Positions 37,298 to 50,082 of a stretch of DNA of 64,000 bases are shown here, piece by piece. The DNA is from Bradyrhizobium retamae. Lineage in GTDB: Bacteria > Pseudomonadota > Alphaproteobacteria > Rhizobiales > Xanthobacteraceae. Every line of letters starts with the position of its first letter. The first letter of the stretch is position 1. Made by a program: the position numbers and the translations under genes. The DNA is taken from NCBI RefSeq assembly GCF_001440415.1, contig NZ_LLYA01000057.1, positions 62,001 through 126,000 on the forward strand, in the 5' to 3' direction. The notes under the pieces were generated by a model that made no database searches, was not told where the DNA came from, and worked only from the letters and a program-made list of their open reading frames with translations.

Positions 37298-37800
37298 TCA
37301 AGCCGTTAAGGCTCCTCGTGCGAGGATTGACGTCTCGTCAGGCTCGGCGCCGTCGCGAAAGACTTTCACCGGGCGCGCAAATCGATTTCGGAAAGCGTTG
37401 GCATCTCGCGAAGTTGAAGCGCAGCTTCCAGATGAACGTCTCCGTGGAGCATTCCGAGAAACTGGCGGGCGCCGGCTTCGCAATCCGCGAGATCGATTTC
37501 GCCGTCCTGTCTCGCTTTCGAGAGAATTGTTGTAAGGACTGCGATGGCCGGCGTAGGGCCATGTTGCGCGTAGGCCCGCGTCGCATCGGGGTAGCGGTCC
37601 GCTTCGAGGATGGCTGTGTAACAGACCTCCAGCAACGACGGTGTCATCATCGTTTCGAGAAGATTGCGTCCAATGATGATGAGCAGTTCCCTTAGTGGCA
37701 AAGAAAGCTGGTCGGCGCTGACACTCAGTGCGTTGGATGAGTAATGGCTGACGACTTTGGTGAACTGGCCGACGAGACGTTGCTGCACGCTCTCGCGCCG
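37298..37800 (-). pseudogene. TetR/AcrR regulator C-terminal fragment
   Basis: The frame 37,366-38,085 ends in a typical TetR C-terminal domain: LPLRELLIIIGRNLLETMM, YTAILEADRYPDATRAY and ADCEAGARQFLGMLHGD. The HTH domain is absent. In its place the ORF continues into an unrelated protein (see 37,800-38,329). Just before the join, a shifted frame reads YSAKDQL, which resembles the end of a TetR HTH (Y-x-SKxxL), so a bit more of the gene survives out of frame. At the 3' end another one-base slip after EIDLRAR would give VKVFRDGAEPDE, ending at 37,298. The regulator is not functional as it stands. Confidence 0.6.
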
Positions 37801-38329
37801 AGTTGATCTTTCGCGGAGTAGCTGCCGGTAGAGACCGTGCGGCGTCCATGTCCAACTCGGTCGGCCCAGCAAGAACGCCGAGAGAACCGCGCAGTTAGAC
37901 CAACCGCGAAGCTGGCTCGCTTTGCCCGGGACCGCTTCGCGGACGCGAAGAATATCACCCGTCGCACCCCACCGGAGAAATATGACGGCATCAGCCGGCG
38001 GCAGGATGGTCACCATCATTCGCGTCCACCACGGCTCCACAAGCAGCCAGGTCCCCGTGCTTATGGGTCGCATGGCATAAGACATGCTTATGTCTGTGAT
38101 GGACGAAGCGATGCCACCATTGCCGTCGAAGGCCGGGCACGAAACAGACGATCCAGTCGGCGGGGTCGACTGTCACCAGGGATCCATTCTCGTCGATGCT
38201 GTTCGCCAGGTCCGCCGGGACGTCGCCGATGACCTTCAGTCTTGAAGGTTTCTCTCTCGGGCCAGACCGTCTTAACCGGGCAATATCATTGGCTGCGCTC
38301 ATCGCTTCATGCTCCTCGTTCTCGCGCAT
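37800..38329 (-). pseudogene. Frameshifted conserved protein fused to the TetR fragment
   Basis: Starts at ATG 38,302 (overlapping the stop of the MFS-TetR gene as ATGA, with GAGGAG upstream) and reads PADWIVCFVPGLRRQWWHRF...HKHV. There, an extra A/T pair at about 38,079-38,080 shifts the frame. Dropping it continues directly into YAMRPISTGTWLLVEPWW, LRWGATGDILRV, VPGKASQLRGWSNCAVL and WTWTPHGLYRQLL. I recall this as a conserved rhizobial protein of unknown function that ends near WTWTPHGLYR. Here it runs on without a stop into TetR sequence, giving a chimera. A sequencing error could explain the single-base shift but not the fusion. Confidence 0.6.
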
Positions 38330-40563
38330 CCACGAATGAAACTTTCGATCCTGGCTCTGACGCGGTCGGCGGCTGCGCCCTTTTGGCGCATTGCAGGACT
38401 CAGCATCAGCGCCTGGCAGAGCGGTTCCCTCAGTAGTCCCAGCAATTGCTCGGCGTATAGCTGAGCGTCCGATACCGACAGGATCCCCCGCTCATTTGCT
38501 GCGGACAGAAACTCGCGCAGCTTGAGTGTGACAATCGCTTGCCCCGCCTCGTGCACCCGCTTCTTGAGCGCAGGATTGCGTGCACCCTCGGTCATCATCA
38601 TTCGAATGAACCCGACCAGGGTGGTCGAATATTCCTTCCAGGCAACGCGTCCGAACGCGATGAGTGTTTCGCGTGCATCGTCCACGGTGCCGGGGCGCGC
38701 TCTCCTCACCAATGGCTGCGACATGAGGGAGGCTTTGTGTTCGGCGATCGCGACGATGAGATCGTCGACGCTCTCGAATGCCGATAGAACTTCTTTCTTC
38801 GAGTATCCGCTTCGATCCAAGATACTATCGAAGTCAGCGGGCGCGCCGCTCGGATTGGCGAGAGCCTCGCTGAACGCCAGCACGATCTCGGCGCGAGGGT
38901 CTGGCCTTGATACGACATTGTCTTGTCGGGAAGGTTTCGGCGCGGGATGTGTCATGTATGGCTCCTCGGTCCGGGCTAACTGCGCCACGCGTATCTTCGC
39001 GTGCAGGGCGAACGCGATCTTGATGGTGACCAGCACGGGCGCAGCGATGACGAAAAGAAGAGCGACTGCAGCGAACGCGGTGTCGAAGGCGATCACCGTG
39101 GATTGACCGGTGAGGGCTCGACCCAACAGACCCATCGCAGTCCGGCCGGCGGCCACGCTGTCCATCCCTCGTGCCGCGAGCATGGCACTCATCGTCGTCA
39201 GCCGCTCGCTGACCGCAGGAAGGCCTGCGGTGACACCGGCGCCGAGCACCGTGGCATTGGCAGCGACATTGTGATCGATCATTGTCTGGAGCCCGGCCAC
39301 GCCCATGAGGCCACCGAGCTGGCGCCCCGCGTTGAAAAGACCGATGCCGGACGCTCGATTGCGGCTGTTGAGGTCGCTGAAAGCGATAAGGGTGATCGAC
39401 AGGAAGAGGAAGCCAAGTCCAAAGCCGCGTAGCAGGATGGCGGCCATCATGTCGTCAGCGCCACTTTCGCTGGTCGAACCGGACAGCATCCACATAGAGG
39501 CCATGATCATCAGGATTCCGAACGGCACCGTGGCGATAGGGGGAGCGCCTCTGACCTGCATGAGAAAGGCAGCAATGAGGAGCGCGCCGACGAAAAGCGC
39601 GCCGCTTGGCAGCAGGAGCTGGCCGGCATCGGTAGGCGTGAACGCGAGAACGGACACGGCAAATGACGGGATCAGGAACGCGCTCCCGAACAAGGCGGCA
39701 CCGGCGACGAAACTGACGATGAAGGCGAAGGAAAAATCGCTCGACCGGAACAGGGTGAAATCCAGCAGGCCTTGGCTTTTGGCCATTACCTGTTGGCCGA
39801 GAAACGCCAGCAAAGCGGCTGCGCCGATCACCGTCAGCCACACGATGCGAGGCTCCTCGAACCAGCGCCATCGACTACCCTGATTGAGAACATAGGTGAG
39901 GCAGAGAAAGGTGACTGATATCAGTAGGAAGCCAGCCCAGTCGAACGGAGGCCGCGCAGTCGTAACGGGTCTCGGGCCCTCCGCGATCAACAGAAGTCCG
40001 ATGGCGGCGAGCGCCACCGGAACAACGCCGAAGAAAATCCATGCCCACGACTGGCTGTCGATCAACCATCCCTGGAGCGCCGGGGCGATGGTCGCAGGAG
40101 CGACGACAGATCCCATCGCAAACAGTGCCTGCAGGATCGGCTGGCAGGATCGCGGATAGGCGAGAAAAATGATCGACTGCCCCGCGACAAGCAACGTGCC
40201 GCCGGAGAAGCCCTGTATCATGCGGAGTGCGACCAGCAGGTCTAACCGATATGTGATGGCGGCGATGCCGCAGGCCGTCCCCATGACCAGCGTCGAACCG
40301 ATGATCAGGCGGCGCGGACTGGTGCGCGTCATGAGCCAGGAGGCGGCCATGAACCCGATCAGCTTCGTTGCGGTGTATCCGATGTCCAGCCAGGCGAACT
40401 CGTCGGGAGTAGCATGGGTGTCGCCAATGATGTCGTTGCGCCCGAGCGACAGGACGGTGCTTGCGATCGCCTCCGTCAGAGTAGCGAGCACGATGCCTGC
40501 GACAAGAATGCTTCCTGCCGCGCGCCTGTCATAGCCTGGCGTTGCGTCGGCGATCGCGGTCAT
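38299..40563 (-). CDS. DHA2-type MFS drug transporter fused to a TetR-like regulator
   Basis: 754 residues. Residues 1 to about 520 are a 14-helix EmrB/QacA-type proton antiporter (DEFAWLDIGYTATKLIGF, LRMIQGFSGGTLLVAGQ, SGIGLFNAGRQLGGLMGVAG). Residues 537-754 form a soluble, mostly helical part: ILDRSGYSKKEVLSAFESVDDLIVAI resembles a TetR HTH and its turn, and VGFIRMMMTEGARNPALKKRVHEAG resembles a TetR ligand domain. Methionine 537 (ATG 38,955) has a GAGGAG site 7 bases upstream, so the regulator may also be made alone. The start overlaps the upstream membrane fusion gene by ATGA. Likely role: efflux, with the regulator sensing the same compounds. It is unclear whether the full fusion is the main product. 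Confidence 0.82.
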   Translation of the reverse strand: MTAIADATPGYDRRAAGSILVAGIVLATLTEAIASTVLSLGRNDIIGDTHATPDEFAWLDIGYTATKLIGFMAASWLMTRTSPRRLIIGSTLVMGTACGIAAITYRLDLLVALRMIQGFSGGTLLVAGQSIIFLAYPRSCQPILQALFAMGSVVAPATIAPALQGWLIDSQSWAWIFFGVVPVALAAIGLLLIAEGPRPVTTARPPFDWAGFLLISVTFLCLTYVLNQGSRWRWFEEPRIVWLTVIGAAALLAFLGQQVMAKSQGLLDFTLFRSSDFSFAFIVSFVAGAALFGSAFLIPSFAVSVLAFTPTDAGQLLLPSGALFVGALLIAAFLMQVRGAPPIATVPFGILMIMASMWMLSGSTSESGADDMMAAILLRGFGLGFLFLSITLIAFSDLNSRNRASGIGLFNAGRQLGGLMGVAGLQTMIDHNVAANATVLGAGVTAGLPAVSERLTTMSAMLAARGMDSVAAGRTAMGLLGRALTGQSTVIAFDTAFAAVALLFVIAAPVLVTIKIAFALHAKIRVAQLARTEEPYMTHPAPKPSRQDNVVSRPDPRAEIVLAFSEALANPSGAPADFDSILDRSGYSKKEVLSAFESVDDLIVAIAEHKASLMSQPLVRRARPGTVDDARETLIAFGRVAWKEYSTTLVGFIRMMMTEGARNPALKKRVHEAGQAIVTLKLREFLSAANERGILSVSDAQLYAEQLLGLLREPLCQALMLSPAMRQKGAAADRVRARIESFIRGCARTRSMKR

Positions 40564-41597
40564 GTGCCGCTTCCTCGATCGATCTCGACACGCGCGGACA
40601 GGCCGGGTACGACGCGACCGGGCAATGGATTTCTGGCGAAGCGAATTTTCACAGGAACGCGTTGAACGACGCGAATGAAGTTCCCCGTCGCATTGTCAGT
40701 GGGGAGCAGGGTGAACGCAGACCCGCTGCCGGGCGCAAAGCTGTCCACCACGCCTTCGATCGTCTGGTTCGGATAGCCGTCCACTGTGATGCGGGCGCGC
40801 TGTCCAGGCCGGATATGTTCGATCTGGCTTTCCTTGAAGTTCGCCACCACCCACACGTCCTTGACCGGAACGATGTCGAGCAAGGAGGTGCCCGGCGCGA
40901 CAAGCCGGCCGACGCGGACCTGACGGTTGCCGACGACGCCGTCGACCGGCGCATGCACCACGGTATGGTCGAGATCGATCTGGGCGAGATCGCGTGCGGC
41001 GTGCGCCTGCGCCACTGCAGCAACTGCAGCTTCGCGCTGGCTTGCAAGGACGGCGATGCGTTGCCGCTGGGCCTCCACCGTTGCCGACGCCGCCGACACG
41101 CCCGCCTCGGTTCTCGATAGCGCCGCATCGCTTTCATCGACCTGCGCCTGGCTGACGGCGTTGGTGCGGATCAGCTCACGGCGGCGATCGGAGGCCTTGC
41201 GGGCCAGATTCATCTCGGCCACGCTCGCAAGTCTTTGAGCTTCGGCCTGCCGTATCAGGGCGTGCTGGAGTTGGGTCTCCGCATCGACATTGGCGAGGCG
41301 GGCTTGGGCGGCTTCGACATTGGCCTCGGCTTGCGCAAGGCGTGCGCGGTAGTCCCGATCGTCGATCCGGAACAGGACGTCGCCTGCACGAACGGTCTGG
41401 TTATCCTGAACCTCTACGGCCGTGACGTAGCCCGCAACCTTCGGCGCGAGCGAGGTCATGTCGCCGCGAATATAGGCGTTATCGGTGAACGTCTCGTTCG
41501 ATCGAGCATAGGCCCAGCCGCCAGCCACGACGCCGACGGCACCGAGGCACAGCACCAAGCCGATCATCTTTTTCGTTTTCGGTAAGAAAATGGTCAT
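40560..41597 (-). CDS. HlyD/EmrA-type membrane fusion protein
   Basis: Periplasmic adaptor partner of the MFS pump. 345 residues from ATG 41,597 with GAGGAA 5 bases before; the frame is open to 41,627. One N-terminal membrane helix (about 10-30), the lipoyl half motif (DNAYIRGDMTSLAPKVAGYV, RAGDVLFRIDD), a coiled-coil hairpin (about 80-185), then second lipoyl half and beta-barrel (DLDHTVVHAPVDGVVGN... region, GTSLLDIVPVKDVWVVANF). The stop overlaps the transporter start, so both are translated together. Confidence 0.9.
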   Translation of the reverse strand: MTIFLPKTKKMIGLVLCLGAVGVVAGGWAYARSNETFTDNAYIRGDMTSLAPKVAGYVTAVEVQDNQTVRAGDVLFRIDDRDYRARLAQAEANVEAAQARLANVDAETQLQHALIRQAEAQRLASVAEMNLARKASDRRRELIRTNAVSQAQVDESDAALSRTEAGVSAASATVEAQRQRIAVLASQREAAVAAVAQAHAARDLAQIDLDHTVVHAPVDGVVGNRQVRVGRLVAPGTSLLDIVPVKDVWVVANFKESQIEHIRPGQRARITVDGYPNQTIEGVVDSFAPGSGSAFTLLPTDNATGNFIRVVQRVPVKIRFARNPLPGRVVPGLSARVEIDRGSGT

Positions 41598-41627: not shown

Positions 41628-42374
41628 CTAAGCCAGTCCCAGGCCGCCGTCGACGGCGATCACCTGGCCCGTCATCCATTCCGAAGTGGGGCCAGCAAGC
41701 CGCACGATCCATTCTGCGACATCGTTCGGAACGCCGCGTCGCCCGAGCGGTATGCGCGCGCGCTCCTGCTCCTTGATTTCGGCCGCCTGTTCCGGGGAGA
41801 GTCCCATCATGCCAGTCAGTGCGCCCGATTCGGTGGGGCCCGCCGCGACGGCGTTCACCCTTATGCCGAGCGGTGCAAGCTCCAGCGCCCAGCAGCGGGT
41901 CAAGTGCTCCAATGCAGCCTTGCTGGCTGCGTAATGGGACCGCCCAGCCGCCGGCTTGTGGCCGAAGGTGCTCGAGACATTGACGATCGTGCCCCGTCTC
42001 GCCTTCAGGTGAGGCAAAGCAGCAGCAGCGAGCAGACTTGGGCCGAGCACGTTGACGGAGAAGATGTCCGTAATGCGATCAGCCGTCGTGTCGGCCAGCG
42101 GAAGGATTGCACCTGCGCCTGCGTTGTTGACCAACGCATCCAGCCTTCCCCAGGTGTCGACCGCCTTTGCGATGGTACGCTTGGCATCCTCGACGGAAGC
42201 GGCATCTGCGACCAATCCAGCGATGTTCGCATGCCCGGCCATTGTCTCTTCGATGGGTCCGGGGCGGCGGCCGGTAACGAGGACCTTGTTGCCTTGTCTG
42301 GCGAAGCGCAGCGCCGCTGCCCGTCCGATGCCGGAGCCGCCGCCCGTCACAATCACGACCTTTTCACTTTGCAT
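41628..42374 (-). CDS. SDR family oxidoreductase
   Basis: 248 residues with TGGGSGIG cofactor motif, VNNAGAG, catalytic VSS...YAASK (S about 138, Y about 152) and C-terminal VIAVDGGLGLA. TGRRPGPIEE in the second strand suggests NADP(H). It lies directly upstream of the efflux adaptor (30 bp) and downstream of bdhA (72 bp), so it belongs to the same transcription unit. Substrate unknown; a possible role is modification of the pump's substrate. Confidence 0.87.
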   Translation of the reverse strand: MQSEKVVIVTGGGSGIGRAAALRFARQGNKVLVTGRRPGPIEETMAGHANIAGLVADAASVEDAKRTIAKAVDTWGRLDALVNNAGAGAILPLADTTADRITDIFSVNVLGPSLLAAAALPHLKARRGTIVNVSSTFGHKPAAGRSHYAASKAALEHLTRCWALELAPLGIRVNAVAAGPTESGALTGMMGLSPEQAAEIKEQERARIPLGRRGVPNDVAEWIVRLAGPTSEWMTGQVIAVDGGLGLA

Positions 42375-42446
42375 GTTCGATCTCTTTCTGTGATCACCGA
42401 GGAAGGGGCGTACGCCGATGAGCTGATAAAGTTCGCCGTGCGCCTG

Positions 42447-43229
42447 CTACCGCGCAGTCCAGCCGCCATCGACGGAGATTGCGGTACCCGTTATCTGGTC
42501 CGCCGCGGCCGAACACAGGAAGGCGACGGTGCCGCCAAGCTGCTCCGGAGACGCGAAATCCAGAGACGGTTGTTTCTCAGCAAGGAGTTCGCTGGTTGCT
42601 TCCTTCTGGCTGATGCCTTTTTGAGCGGCGATATCGCTTATCTGCTTTTCGACCAGCGGCGTTCGCACCCAACCTGGACAGACCGCGTTGCAGGTCACCC
42701 CGCTTCCAGCGGTCTCGAGACCGACCACCTTGGTCAGGCCGACCAGCCCGTGCTTGGCCGCGACGTAAGCGGCTTTGTGGGTTGAAGCGACAAGGCCGTG
42801 CGCGGAGGCGATGTTGACAATGCGTCCCCAGCGCTGCTTCTTCATCTGGGGCACCGCCGCTGCAATGCCGTGGAACGCGGCGGATAGATTGATGGCGAGA
42901 ATTGCATCCCACTTGGCAGCCGGGAATTCTTCCACCGGGGCAGTGAACTGGATGCCGGCATTGTTGACGAGGATGTCGAGGCGTCCGAATTTTTCGACCG
43001 TCCTGTCAATCAACTCGCGCACAGCGTTGCCCTTTGACATGTCGGCGCCGTCATAGACGACTCGTACGCCGTGATCGCGTTCGATTCCGCTGCGGATCGC
43101 CTCGATCTCGCCCGCTTCGCCAAAGCCGTTCAACACCAGGTTAGCGCCCAGCTTGGCCAGCTCTTTGGCGATCCCCAGCCCGATGCCGCTGGTCGATCCG
43201 GTGACGATTGCTACCTTGCCCTTCAACAT
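42447..43229 (-). CDS. bdhA: 3-hydroxybutyrate dehydrogenase
   Basis: Oxidises (R)-3-hydroxybutyrate to acetoacetate with NAD+, the exit step of polyhydroxybutyrate use. 260 residues from ATG 43,229 (MLKGKVAIVTGSTSGIGLGIA). Family-specific features: VNNAGIQFTAPVEEFP, SAHGLVASTHKAAYVAAKHGLVG with the catalytic YxxxK, VCPGWVRTPLVEKQI and GTAISVDGGWTAR. The neighbouring acetoacetate decarboxylase and patatin fit the same pathway. Confidence 0.9.
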   Translation of the reverse strand: MLKGKVAIVTGSTSGIGLGIAKELAKLGANLVLNGFGEAGEIEAIRSGIERDHGVRVVYDGADMSKGNAVRELIDRTVEKFGRLDILVNNAGIQFTAPVEEFPAAKWDAILAINLSAAFHGIAAAVPQMKKQRWGRIVNIASAHGLVASTHKAAYVAAKHGLVGLTKVVGLETAGSGVTCNAVCPGWVRTPLVEKQISDIAAQKGISQKEATSELLAEKQPSLDFASPEQLGGTVAFLCSAAADQITGTAISVDGGWTAR

Positions 43230-43270
43230 GGGAATGCCTTTCGATGTTCTGAGAAATGGTACCTGCTGCC

Positions 43271-44449
43271 TCAATCGCGGCGGCGATGGACGTCATGAGT
43301 GACGATGCCGAGCTCGGGAGCCGGCGGGTCCAGGCGACCCGGATCGGCCAGCGTGCGGCGGATATCTTCCAGCCCGCTCTGCCAGTGCGCGCGCATCGCG
43401 CTCAGCCCGAACTCGTAATCCCTGGAATGGCCCTCGTAGGTCTTGGTTTGGTAGATCAGGTGGACGATGTTGTACGAGCGGTGGCGGGCCATATCCGCAA
43501 TGGCGCGGATTTCCGGCTTCGCCTTTGCGCTTTCGGGCAGCTCCTCCATCGTCCGCTGCAACGCCTGACGCATCTTCTGCATTCGCAGCACCTGGTCGGT
43601 AACGGCGCGCGTGCGGCTCGAATACTGGATGTCTTTCTGCCGGCTCGACACTTCCATCATGTCGTAGGGCACGCGCCCTCTGGCCGACCAGAGATCGATC
43701 TGGAATGTCAGGGTGTCACGGGGCTCGCCGGACAGCACACGGGAGAGAGGCGTGTTCGAAACCACGCCGCCATCCCAGTAGTGCTCGCCTTCAATCTCGA
43801 CGGCGGGGAATCCCGGCGGCAGCGCGCCGGAAGCCATAAAATGCTTCGGTCCCAGCCGGCGCTCGGCGGTGTCGAAATAGGTCAGGTTGCCGGTGCGGAC
43901 GTTGACCGCGCCGACGCTGACGCGCACTTCGCCCGAGTTCAGTCTGTCGAAGTCAACGAGCCGTTCCAGTGTCTGGTGCAACGGTGCCGTGTCGTAGAAG
44001 CTGGTCGCTGCATCACCAGAGAACGGCGACCAGAGCGGCGACGGGAAGCGCGGCTTGAAGAAACCGGGCTGGCCCTGGACCAACGCTCTCGTCGCCGCCA
44101 TCGCGTTGCGCACCGAGTTGATGTCGAACGCAAAGGGCAAGGCATTGGCCAACCCTTCGCCGGCAGGCCACTCTATCGAAAAGGCACAGATAGTTTCCCA
44201 GAACTCGCGCAGCCGTGCCACGCGCTCGGCTTCAGGGGAGCCCGCGATGATGGCGGCGTTGAGTGCGCCGATCGAAATGCCGGCCAGCCAGTTCGGCCGG
44301 ATGCCGGCCTCATGCAGGCCCTCATAGACTCCGGCCTGGTAGGCGCCAAGCGCTCCGCCACCCTGCAGCACCAGAGCAACGACATCGTAGGGCAGCGGCC
44401 TGGTTTGCTGCAGCACTGCACCGGGTTGCTCGCGCATCACGTTCAACAT
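43271..44449 (-). CDS. Patatin-like phospholipase family protein
   Basis: 392 residues from ATG 44,449, which has AAGGAG eight bases upstream; the open frame to 44,944 overlaps the next gene and is not coding. Patatin fold with oxyanion loop LVLQGGGALGAYQAG (about 25-39), nucleophile in GISIGALNAA (about 57-66) and catalytic Asp in YWDGGVVSNTP. The C-terminal part (about 225-390) resembles the DUF3734 extension found in this subgroup. Likely a lipase or esterase; link to PHB breakdown is suggested only by bdhA and adc on either side. Confidence 0.87.
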   Translation of the reverse strand: MLNVMREQPGAVLQQTRPLPYDVVALVLQGGGALGAYQAGVYEGLHEAGIRPNWLAGISIGALNAAIIAGSPEAERVARLREFWETICAFSIEWPAGEGLANALPFAFDINSVRNAMAATRALVQGQPGFFKPRFPSPLWSPFSGDAATSFYDTAPLHQTLERLVDFDRLNSGEVRVSVGAVNVRTGNLTYFDTAERRLGPKHFMASGALPPGFPAVEIEGEHYWDGGVVSNTPLSRVLSGEPRDTLTFQIDLWSARGRVPYDMMEVSSRQKDIQYSSRTRAVTDQVLRMQKMRQALQRTMEELPESAKAKPEIRAIADMARHRSYNIVHLIYQTKTYEGHSRDYEFGLSAMRAHWQSGLEDIRRTLADPGRLDPPAPELGIVTHDVHRRRD

Positions 44450-44481
44450 TGCCAAAACTCCTTGCATTGTGGCCGATCCGA

Positions 44482-45276
44482 TCAGCGAACATTCGCTTCG
44501 ATCAGAATCCCTGACCCGGGTGCGCGCACAGCCGCGCCCGGCGCTAAATAGTCGTGAACTACGGTGCCAAGCCCGAGGGTGAGATCGGCGACGAGGTGCT
44601 TGGCCGACAGCACTTGCAGGACTGGCAACTCGGCGACCGGCGCAAGCGCATGCGAGTAGAGGTCGAGCGCCGCCGGCCCGGTCCAGGCGCCCTTCACGGT
44701 GATCTCCTCGAGATGAAAGCGCACCAGCTCGCAGATGCGCGCCGTGCCGTCGACATGGGGGATGATCTTGATGAGGAAGTTCGGCGCGGCGAGTTTTTTG
44801 GCTTCGGCGGCGGTGTCGAGAGCGCGATGCTTGTAGCCCATGGTGCCGGTGGCGATGCGGACCGAGCCGTAGTTCAAGGTGCCCACCAGGGTGTCGGTCT
44901 CGACGGCCAGTTTCGGCTCTGCCAGCTTCTTCGGAAAACCCCACAGCTCACGCCCACCCGCAATCGGCGGATGGTCGTTGAGGAACATCTGATGGATGAA
45001 GCTGCCGGCCTGGCCCTTGTAGGACACCGGAATGACCTGACCGCTTTCGGTATAGTCGCCGAAGCCGGTTGAGTCGGGCATGCGGATGAACTCGTAGTTC
45101 ACCACGGGCTCGGTGAGTGCGAGCGGCTCCGGCACGATGCGGCGCAGCGCTTCGGGATCCGTCCGGTACCGGATGATGAAGTATTCGCGGTTGACGAACC
45201 GGTAAGGGCCGGGTGGGAAGGCCGGGTTCGTCAGCGGCATGGCGAACGCTGTCGCGCGCACATTCTCGTGTTTCAT
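44482..45276 (-). CDS. adc: Acetoacetate decarboxylase
   Basis: Converts acetoacetate to acetone and CO2 through a Schiff-base lysine. 264 residues from ATG 45,276 with GGAG upstream. The Schiff-base lysine lies in [14 protein letters not shown] (about residues 109-122), preceded by [19 protein letters not shown]. Length and motifs match clostridial-type Adc. With bdhA it gives a route 3-hydroxybutyrate, acetoacetate, acetone. Confidence 0.9.
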
Positions 45277-45308
45277 CGGGGTGAGCTCCAAATTGGTCTG
45301 ACATGAGC

Positions 45309-48135: not shown

Positions 48136-49007
48136 TTACCGAATGCGCCGCCGCCAATCGCTCGGTGTCTCTCCGGTCAGCTTCCTGAACGCCGCAGCGA
48201 AGGCGGTCTGGGAGGAATAGCCAAGCGCCGCCGCGATCGAGACGACGGATTCGTCCGTGTCGCGCAGCATGTTCATGGCCGATGCTGGCGCAGCCAGGCA
48301 TGCGGTGAAAGTCCGGTACTTTCCTTGAAGGCGCGGCAGAAGTGGAAACGCGAGAGGCCGGCGTCTGCAGCCAGCGCCGCGAGGGAGACGTCCGAATCAG
48401 CGTCCGAGCGCAGGCGCTCGATGGCGCGCCGCAGTGCCGTCGGCGATAATCCACCGATGACTGGCTGAATCGCGACAGGTGGACCCGCATGCGCGGCCAG
48501 CAGGCGTGTCGCCAGCAGATCTGTCAATTGCTGCCTGAACAAGGCGTCCAGTGCGGCACTGTCTTCCAGTACATCTGCCGCGCTCAGCAGCAGTCGGGAT
48601 GTAATGGGATCGGGATGCGCCGATCGATCCATCAGATCGCCTGGGGAAGCCGTGCCGGCTTCCAGCGCAACGCGCTCGAGCGTTGTCTGCGGAAGATAGA
48701 GGTGAATCACGTTCAAGGATTCGGGAATGTCCCAGCGCGACGTCGAGCCGGCCGGGATGACCGTCACAGTGCCGGGACGCGCCGTTCCAACCACGACCGA
48801 TTTCCCGGTGCGCCGCTCGAAGCGCAGTGAGCCGGAGGGGAACGTCATGAGGACGTGGTCGGCCATCGGCCCGACGACGTCGTGCAGCGCGTCATGTTTC
48901 CAATGGGCGATCACGCTGCTGGACGGCTCAGATGCCATGCGAACTGGCGTCATCTTGAGCACGCGCGCCATTTCCGTATCGGCGTGAGGGGCCTCACCGA
49001 TCGGCAC
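48136..49007 (-). pseudogene. AraC-family regulator with 10-bp deletion (copy 1)
   Basis: The first 243 codons mirror the neighbouring gene 49,132-50,082: cupin-like sensor (HWKHDALHDVVGPMADHV) and the first HTH (DVSLAALAADAGLSRFHFCRAFKE). At GLSPHAWLRQHR the frame ends early. Compared with copy 2, ten bases are missing around 48,275; past the gap the other frame continues NMLRDTDESVVSIAAALGYS, the second HTH, up to TGETPSDWRRRIR and a stop at 48,136. The protein made would lack the second HTH and probably cannot bind DNA properly. Confidence 0.8.
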
Positions 49008-49131
49008 GTCGCGCGAGCTCGCCTCGGAAGTATCAGGCTGGTCCTGAAGGATCGCGCAAGATTGGCTTGCAGCTCATGCGCGTGTCCTCGGCAGTGTGGA
49101 GAAGCTTCGCTTACCGGTAGAACGATTGCTG

Positions 49132-50082
49132 CTAACGCACGCGCCGCCGCCAATCGCTCGGGGTTTCGCCGGTCATCTTCCTGAACGCCGCAGCGAAGGC
49201 GGTCTGCGACGAATAGCCAAGCGCGGCCGCGATCGAGACGACGGATTCGTCAGTGTCGCGCAGCATGTTCATGGCCTGCTCGAGCCGGTGCTGGCGCAGC
49301 CAGGCATGAGGTGAAAGCCCGGTGCTTTCCTTGAAGGAGCGGCAGAAGTGGAAGCGCGACAGTCCGGCATCTGACGCCAGCGCAGCGAGCGAGACGTCCG
49401 CGTCGCTATCCGAGCGCAGGCGTTCGATGGCGCGGAGCAGGACCTTCGGCGACAGCCCACCCATGGTCGGCTGGAACGTGGTGGGCGAGCCGGTGTGCGC
49501 AGCCAGGAGGCGTGTGGCCAGGAGGTCTGTCAACTGATGCCTGAACAGCATATCCAGGGCCCCATTGCCTTCCAAGGTATCCGCTGCACTCAAGAGCAAT
49601 CGGGACGTAATGGGGTCGGGATACGCCGTTCGCTCCAGGAGATCGGTCGGTGATGCGATCTCGGCTTCGTCGGCAACGCGTTTCAGCATTGCGTGAGGAA
49701 GATAGAGCTGAACGACATCAACAGGTTTCGGAATATCCCACCGGGAGCTTGATCCTTCCGGAATGATTATCACGACCCCGCGACGAAACGTTCCAATCGC
49801 AACCGATCTCCCTGTCCGCCGCTCCATGCGCTGCACCGTGCCGTTGTAAGCCATGATGACGTGATGGGCCATGGGTTCGACGACGTCGTGCAATGGGTCA
49901 TGTTTCCAGTGGGCGATCCCGCTACCGGAGGCATCCAAAGCCATGTGAAATGGCGTGGTCCCGAGAACGCGTGCCATCTCCACATCGGCAGACGGCCGGT
50001 GGCCATTTGGCTCACGGTCCCGGTGCGTCTCGGACGCGGCCCGCAGATTGTTCGACTGATCGCGTATGGTTTGCTTGCTCAT
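49132..50082 (-). CDS. AraC-family transcriptional regulator (copy 2)
   Basis: 316 residues. N-terminal cupin-like domain (about 45-150) and a helical linker with PDPITSRLLLSAADTLEG. The C-terminal AraC DNA-binding domain (about 205-316) has both HTH motifs: VSLAALASDAGLSRFHFCRSFKE and VSIAAALGYSSQTAFAAAFRKMTG. It is intact, unlike its tandem duplicate. Its target could be the metabolic/efflux genes downstream, but this is inferred only from position. Upstream about 360 bp has no gene. Confidence 0.88.
   Translation of the reverse strand: MSKQTIRDQSNNLRAASETHRDREPNGHRPSADVEMARVLGTTPFHMALDASGSGIAHWKHDPLHDVVEPMAHHVIMAYNGTVQRMERRTGRSVAIGTFRRGVVIIIPEGSSSRWDIPKPVDVVQLYLPHAMLKRVADEAEIASPTDLLERTAYPDPITSRLLLSAADTLEGNGALDMLFRHQLTDLLATRLLAAHTGSPTTFQPTMGGLSPKVLLRAIERLRSDSDADVSLAALASDAGLSRFHFCRSFKESTGLSPHAWLRQHRLEQAMNMLRDTDESVVSIAAALGYSSQTAFAAAFRKMTGETPSDWRRRVR

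Follow-up and report, generated by a model that had tools for sequence, protein, structure and literature searches.

What is a TetR-type domain doing at the end of a membrane pump? The question is raised by a 64,000-nucleotide stretch of DNA from the soil bacterium Bradyrhizobium retamae, a member of the soybean-symbiont genus (assembly GCF_001440415.1, contig NZ_LLYA01000057.1, positions 62,001 to 126,000; hereafter the window), in which one minus-strand open frame of 754 codons (38299-40563) runs without a stop from a pump of the major facilitator superfamily (MFS) into a part of TetR type. As a rule a pump and its TetR regulator are two distinct proteins with common ligands. A preliminary description of this DNA had reported the single frame, whose coordinates and length of 754 amino acids (aa) are confirmed, and had suggested that the TetR part works as a repressor, tethered or free. 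I propose instead that a permease of the EmrAB type captured, through loss of a stop codon, an FrrA/AefR-like TetR protein whose DNA-binding part had diverged, and that the pump now bears it as a module for ligand sensing and dimerisation. This account is tentative, falling somewhat short of probable. The parts of the fusion are as follows, with the ratio of nonsynonymous to synonymous substitution (dN/dS) given as the median among fused copies.

38959..40563, minus strand: DHA2/EmrB-type MFS pump part, residues 1-535; the hidden Markov model (HMM) match ends at residue 507
38953..38955, minus strand: internal ATG at residue 537, the start of the former free TetR-like gene, from the sequence and from alignment with five relatives
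38896..39018, minus strand: linker that holds the old gene junction, residues 516-556; dN/dS 0.50; the start of the free gene in relatives aligns here
38719..38895, minus strand: helices resembling a helix-turn-helix (HTH), residues 557-615; unmatched by TetR_N, modelled as helices; dN/dS 0.26
38302..38718, minus strand: effector part, residues 616-754; TetR_C_7 at 647-737; FrrA is the nearest solved relative

HMM searches, which the preliminary description had recommended, assign the pump to DHA2/EmrB and the second part to TetR_C_7. The TIGR00711 model for DHA2/EmrB matches residues 20-507 with 235.6 bits against a curated cut-off of 230.2, and so the pump falls within the DHA2 subfamily, as had been claimed; MFS_1 matches residues 26-421 (109.8 bits, E 1.8e-31). 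The 14 helices once ascribed to it have that subfamily match as their one basis, since a hydropathy scan of the fusion gives 23 overlapping segments (none starting past residue 530) and no clean helix count. TetR_C_7, the AefR-like effector domain, matches residues 647-737 with 52.2 bits against a cut-off of 22 (E 5.6e-13). The claim that the second part is TetR-like is therefore borne out for its C-terminal effector domain but not for its HTH, which Pfam does not match. Within the TetR part the coding frame contains no stop and the other five frames contain 1 to 10.

The same fusion was sought in related genomes and is there. A search of 265 Bradyrhizobium genomes with the whole protein gives 36 with a match at E<=1e-100, and the pump loci of all 36 were read. 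The two parts are fused in frame in 15 copies from 14 genomes (in one of them the pump part is broken, and another runs into a contig end). Five genomes have a separate 220-aa TetR-like gene immediately 3' of the pump, five more have lost the TetR part save for a stretch that, judged by eye, resembles its first residues, and 12 have no TetR part (11 with closer homologues and one with two distant pumps). Pump homologues of this last kind are about 530-620 aa long within the genus, and G028, a fused genome, encodes one as a second pump. The fused loci include records of B. valentinum, B. yuanmingense and four further strains; five of these six run to 754 codons and the sixth is cut by a contig end. 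A fusion frame shared by 14 genomes cannot be put down to chance or to sequencing error. The copy with the broken pump part is the second copy of G286 (L074, G286b), frameshifted around residue 236, and an intact copy lies elsewhere in the same genome.

Beyond the genus the fusion query finds, in 189 other genomes of the class, one match at E<=1e-60, confined to the pump part. A tblastn search of plasmids gave 879 records, 4 of them with 80% of the query covered by one place, and two of these, from the best 20 of the 879, were read. They are Sinorhizobium plasmid places with an apparent query cover of 82-93%, and both were dropped as fusions: each is a pump alone, with a stop soon after it and no TetR homology.

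The unfused relatives suggest how the fusion arose. In four of the five genomes with a separate gene the pump ends in CCG or CCC and TAA, and the TetR-like gene begins at an ATG one base (C) further on, with GAGGAG or AAGGAG ahead of it. The remaining genome has a mutated stop, and its pump extends about 10 residues in another frame. The junction in 10 of the 15 fused copies is GAGGAG-CCG/CCA-TAC-ATG, and three more keep GAGGAG and ATG with different bases between them. Losing one base at the stop region would yield the common fused junction. The ATG of the free gene in the five relatives aligns with the internal ATG of the fusion (38955, residue 537), which is preceded in the window by GAGGAG and a 6-base gap. 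The preliminary description was right to point out this internal start, and ATG and GAGGAG are retained together in 13 of the 15 fused copies. The ATG is lost in G113 and G020, so these two copies need no product from it.

How many times this happened is a matter of which tree one follows. With a free Microvirga homologue as root, the tree of the TetR part gathers the 15 fused copies in a single clade (96/86) and the five free copies in a second (100/100). The DNA tree of the pump gene spreads 14 fused rows over three places, its starred branches forcing 4 changes, and in the pump protein tree there are 3 changes, 2 of them forced. Both pump trees omit G286b, with its frameshifted pump, and G332, which is short; the DNA tree also omits two distant rows of G010. 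I read these trees as one probable fusion followed by loss or recombination, with several fusions as the alternative.

The TetR part does not travel alone. The gene that follows it is

37366..38302, minus strand: downstream partner gene, with a tryptophan-rich (W-rich) N-domain and TetR_C_7; its start codon overlaps the stop of the fusion, and it has one frameshift near 38079

Its protein consists of the N-terminal W-rich domain, about 170 residues, and then TetR_C_7. The partner gene follows 14 of the 15 fused copies. In 13 of these it is intact (336-353 aa) and starts 4 bases ahead of the end of the fusion, and in the window it is in two frameshifted pieces, by real mutation or by draft error. 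The W gene also stands 3' of all five separate TetR-like copies and was not found at the 17 pump loci without a TetR part. G039 has a second copy of it, cut by a contig end.

Farther afield, the same overlapping pair occurs with its TetR-like gene free on plasmids of Microvirga terrae, Sphingobium indicum UT26S and Sphingopyxis indica (L112, L117, L118). These pairs are like the Bradyrhizobium one in having a homologous TetR part and an overlapping W-domain/TetR_C gene, and unlike it in that their TetR-like gene is not fused. Identity to the fused TetR part is 57%, 45% and 32%, respectively, and that of the second gene to the B. valentinum one is 81%, 71% and 52%. In Microvirga the pair stands ahead of adaptor and pump, and in Sphingobium it is transcribed divergently from genes for an outer-membrane factor, an adaptor and a DHA2 pump; the Sphingopyxis annotation has no pump within 5 kilobases (kb) of it. 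The fused TetR part derives from a two-gene overlapping module. The TetR-like homologue of Sphingobium UT26S (L117:3808-4995) is annotated with about 190 extra N-terminal residues that have no Pfam match, owing to the choice of start or to another fusion.

The W domain is strongly constrained, with a dN/dS of 0.06, as against 0.12 for the TetR_C part of the same protein (13 copies, 78 pairs). It has no match in Pfam, NCBIfam (searched with the whole protein), PHROG or phage records, nothing credible in the PDB (the best, at E 0.019, is a designed protein), and was not found at E<=1e-10 in 384 other genomes of the class. A phage origin was considered and dropped, there being no phage record, PHROG, Pfam, NCBIfam or credible PDB hit behind it. 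The structure model of the W-domain protein is unusable (predicted local distance difference test, pLDDT, 34). The order of His and Cys in the W domain may resemble that of papain-like hydrolases.

Can the TetR part still bind DNA? It has been preserved: across the fused copies the HTH-like part has a median dN/dS of 0.26 and the effector part one of 0.24, with 0.15 in the pump and 0.50 in the linker (14 copies, 91 pairs, or 89 for the HTH-like part; G039 is left out because of its contig end, and G286b enters only from about residue 239). The TetR-type domain is under purifying selection. The free copies, five in number, give a dN/dS of 0.67 in the HTH-like part and 0.15 in the effector part, from 10 pairs and few data. 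Pfam TetR_N (PF00440) gives no match at E<=10 in any of five members of the group (fused, free Bradyrhizobium, Microvirga, Sphingobium, Sphingopyxis), and matches four of four ordinary TetR proteins from the same loci, taken as controls, at 56-64 bits. The HTH-like segment is acidic: its net charge is -5 in the window, three homologues have -4 to -5, and three ordinary TetRs have +1, -2 and -1.

The predicted fold resembles that of a TetR protein. The model of the TetR part is all-helical, with pLDDT 68, a predicted template-modelling score (pTM) of 0.64, and HTH-like helices in TetR order (pLDDT blocks 62-87) at 20-33, 42-49, 53-59 and 63-78, as in a TetR HTH. Structure prediction, which had been proposed as the test for such an HTH, gives the helix order of one in a model of modest quality. 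FrrA is the nearest solved relative by phmmer (E 2.6e-7), and Foldseek places FrrA structures at ranks 1-4 by E-value (2.4e-4), all the top matches being TetR structures. Since the matches to FrrA and to FasR run through the HTH, it has evidently diverged rather than been deleted.

If the fused domain were the repressor of its own operon, one would look to the neighbouring genes for its target. Upstream of the pump, all on the same strand, are

40560..41597, minus strand: HlyD/EmrA adaptor, overlapping the pump start; HlyD_D23 E 5.9e-22, TIGR00998 246.6 bits
41628..42374, minus strand: oxidoreductase of the short-chain dehydrogenase/reductase (SDR) family, adh_short E 3.7e-50; upstream of the adaptor, its position varying among relatives
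42447..43229, minus strand: SDR resembling 3-hydroxybutyrate dehydrogenase, an enzyme name given by sequence resemblance

The adaptor has HlyD Pfam domains above cut-off, and its 246.6 bits with TIGR00998 lie below that model's own curated cut-off of 390.8; an adaptor gene thus stands alongside the DHA2/EmrB permease. In the five unfused genomes a divergent TetR gene and two copies of GGTAAC-N4-ATTACC lie ahead of the adaptor. That TetR is called ordinary by a TetR_N match in G084 and by homology in the other four. No orthologue of this repressor was found in the five fused genomes tested (G000, G028, G086, G102, G020), in which its best match outside the locus has 31-32% identity; the fused domain itself has 30-35%. 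The operator is matched 0, 0, 1, 0 and 0 times in those genomes, and the reversed control pattern 1, 1, 1, 1 and 0 times; unfused G084 has exactly its two sites. Nor was GGTAAC-N4-ATTACC, the operator of the unfused relatives and the only one sought, found in the window or its genome. The distance from an SDR gene to the adaptor start is about 30 bases in the window and G038, and in G102, G020, G297 and G243 the adaptor begins within tens of bases of the dehydrogenase gene, gaps so short in these six as to leave little room for a promoter of its own. The remaining fused copies have a different upstream region, where a promoter is possible.

On the best reading of all this, the domain would be a ligand-sensing or docking domain borne by the pump rather than a tethered repressor, and a mechanism may be sketched. 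The DNA-binding part would have diverged past recognition by Pfam before the fusion took place. Lying after the last helix, the TetR-type domain would be on the cytoplasmic side of the membrane, where it may bind an aromatic or flavonoid-like compound, a ligand suggested by the resemblance to FrrA and the rhizobial setting. The domain would dimerise by way of its TetR_C part. TetR proteins dimerise through their effector part, and since they do, and since the two genes are mostly inherited together, it is an economical idea that two TetR_C proteins pair: the neighbouring W-domain/TetR_C protein would be docked onto the pump by such pairing. Transport would be tuned after translation, with transcription not regulated. 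In the window, where the partner is frameshifted, the fusion may act alone or the module may be decaying.

Several facts weigh against this proposal. The HTH-like helices are still predicted and are conserved as much as the effector part, and both the FrrA alignment (38-211) and a weak match to the FasR model (10-142, E 0.001) cross the HTH; DNA binding through an unusual surface is possible. The fold model is modest in both pLDDT and pTM, and the Foldseek TM-scores to FrrA are just 0.44-0.49, below those of several other TetRs. The internal ATG and ribosome site, kept in most copies, fit a free product. The TetR domain is dispensable, since no more than a short remnant of it survives in five relatives. 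As for the partner, G020 holds the fusion without it, the window's is broken, and G019 has a W gene in pieces, preceded only by the last 61 TetR residues, with no pump within 12 kb.

The strongest rival, itself unlikely, is that the fusion is nearly neutral: what matters is a free TetR-like protein made from the internal start, and the joined protein is tolerated read-through. That 13 of 15 fused copies still have the former start codon and its ribosome site is what this view would predict, as is the low dN/dS of the effector part (about 0.15) in the five free copies. It is harder pressed by G113 and G020, where the internal ATG has gone yet the frame remains open, and by the 41-residue linker, in which none of the 15 copies has acquired a stop despite a dN/dS of 0.50.

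The repressor of the preliminary description, tethered, free or both, is decidedly unlikely. Here the TetR part would bind DNA near the operon and be released by pump occupancy or by ligand. The modelled helices in TetR HTH arrangement, the FrrA and FasR alignments through the HTH, the purifying selection on that segment (dN/dS 0.26) and the internal Shine-Dalgarno site and ATG in 13 of 15 copies are all in its favour. Against it stands an HTH-like segment unmatched by TetR_N in five of five group members and carrying a net charge of -5. The unfused relatives, moreover, use a separate, ordinary TetR facing two operators; repressor and double operator are gone from all five fused genomes tested, and the operator from the window and its genome. 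In the window, G038, G102, G020, G297 and G243 there is little promoter room ahead of the adaptor.

A TetR protein with a dead HTH might instead act as an anti-repressor, pairing with an ordinary TetR and stripping it off DNA, and, once fused, holding it at the membrane. The free form does have an ordinary TetR with TetR_C_7 beside it in Microvirga, Sphingobium and G084, and the four other unfused Bradyrhizobium carry a divergent TetR homologous to that one. But the orthologous repressor and its double operator are gone from the five fused genomes tested (best identity outside the locus 31-32%), leaving this idea quite improbable. Last, a sequencing or assembly error that merged two genes has next to no probability: the assembly behind the window consists of 235 contigs, and the gene after the fusion is frameshifted, but the same fusion in 14 genomes, including the B. 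valentinum and B. yuanmingense records, refutes it.

Set beside known systems, the fusion is like an EmrB/DHA2 permease with its EmrA adaptor in having a pump above the DHA2/EmrB cut-off and an overlapping upstream adaptor gene, and unlike it in the added 218 or so residues with a TetR_C_7 domain. It is like FrrA (PDB 6g87, 6g8g, 6g8h) in that no other solved protein stands closer to it, whether by sequence or by Foldseek E-value, and unlike it in that TetR_N does not match the fused domain and identity is 22%. No report of an MFS-TetR fusion was recognised in the literature searched, which took in few subscription papers and is weak evidence of absence. Pfam may hold architectures of TetR_N with MFS_1 elsewhere. 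FrrA is described as a free flavonoid-responsive regulator encoded beside the freCAB pump genes (PMC4070704).

Some observations concern the surrounding genes. Of the 15 fused copies, 7 have the dehydrogenase-like SDR (42447..43229) at full length upstream and 3 have a 3' remnant of it; at 4 it was not found, and at 1 the contig ends. At L021, L024 and L074 just the last 39-49 dehydrogenase residues are left upstream of the adaptor, as if a cassette had moved or a flank had been replaced. Further upstream on the same strand are two frames that, by sequence resemblance, are patatin-like and acetoacetate-decarboxylase-like. Separately, at 48273-50082 (minus strand), two adjoining frames, one shorter, resemble tandem AraC-type regulators. 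The gene content of 41628-45291 (minus strand) resembles that of the genistein-induced BjG30 locus of Bradyrhizobium japonicum, where genes for acetoacetate decarboxylase and hydroxybutyrate dehydrogenase accompany efflux pump and TetR genes (PMC4070704). The likeness is one of gene content, and the BjG30 pump is described as of the resistance-nodulation-division (RND) type.

What the fusion may mean is that a TetR fold has been put to use outside transcription. It is conceivable, though rather unlikely, that two alphaproteobacterial TetR effector domains form a heterodimer in which one partner has a dead HTH and the other has had its HTH replaced by a new, near-invariant W-rich domain, and that, with the first partner joined to an EmrB pump, the ligand pocket of a regulator serves there as a substrate sensor or docking site. 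The relatives show the state before and after the fusion, and the fused genomes tested have neither the repressor nor its double operator. Direct control of a transporter by the ligand pocket of a TetR protein is an idea that this locus makes testable, and the two-gene module, with its strongly constrained W-rich domain, is a second target.

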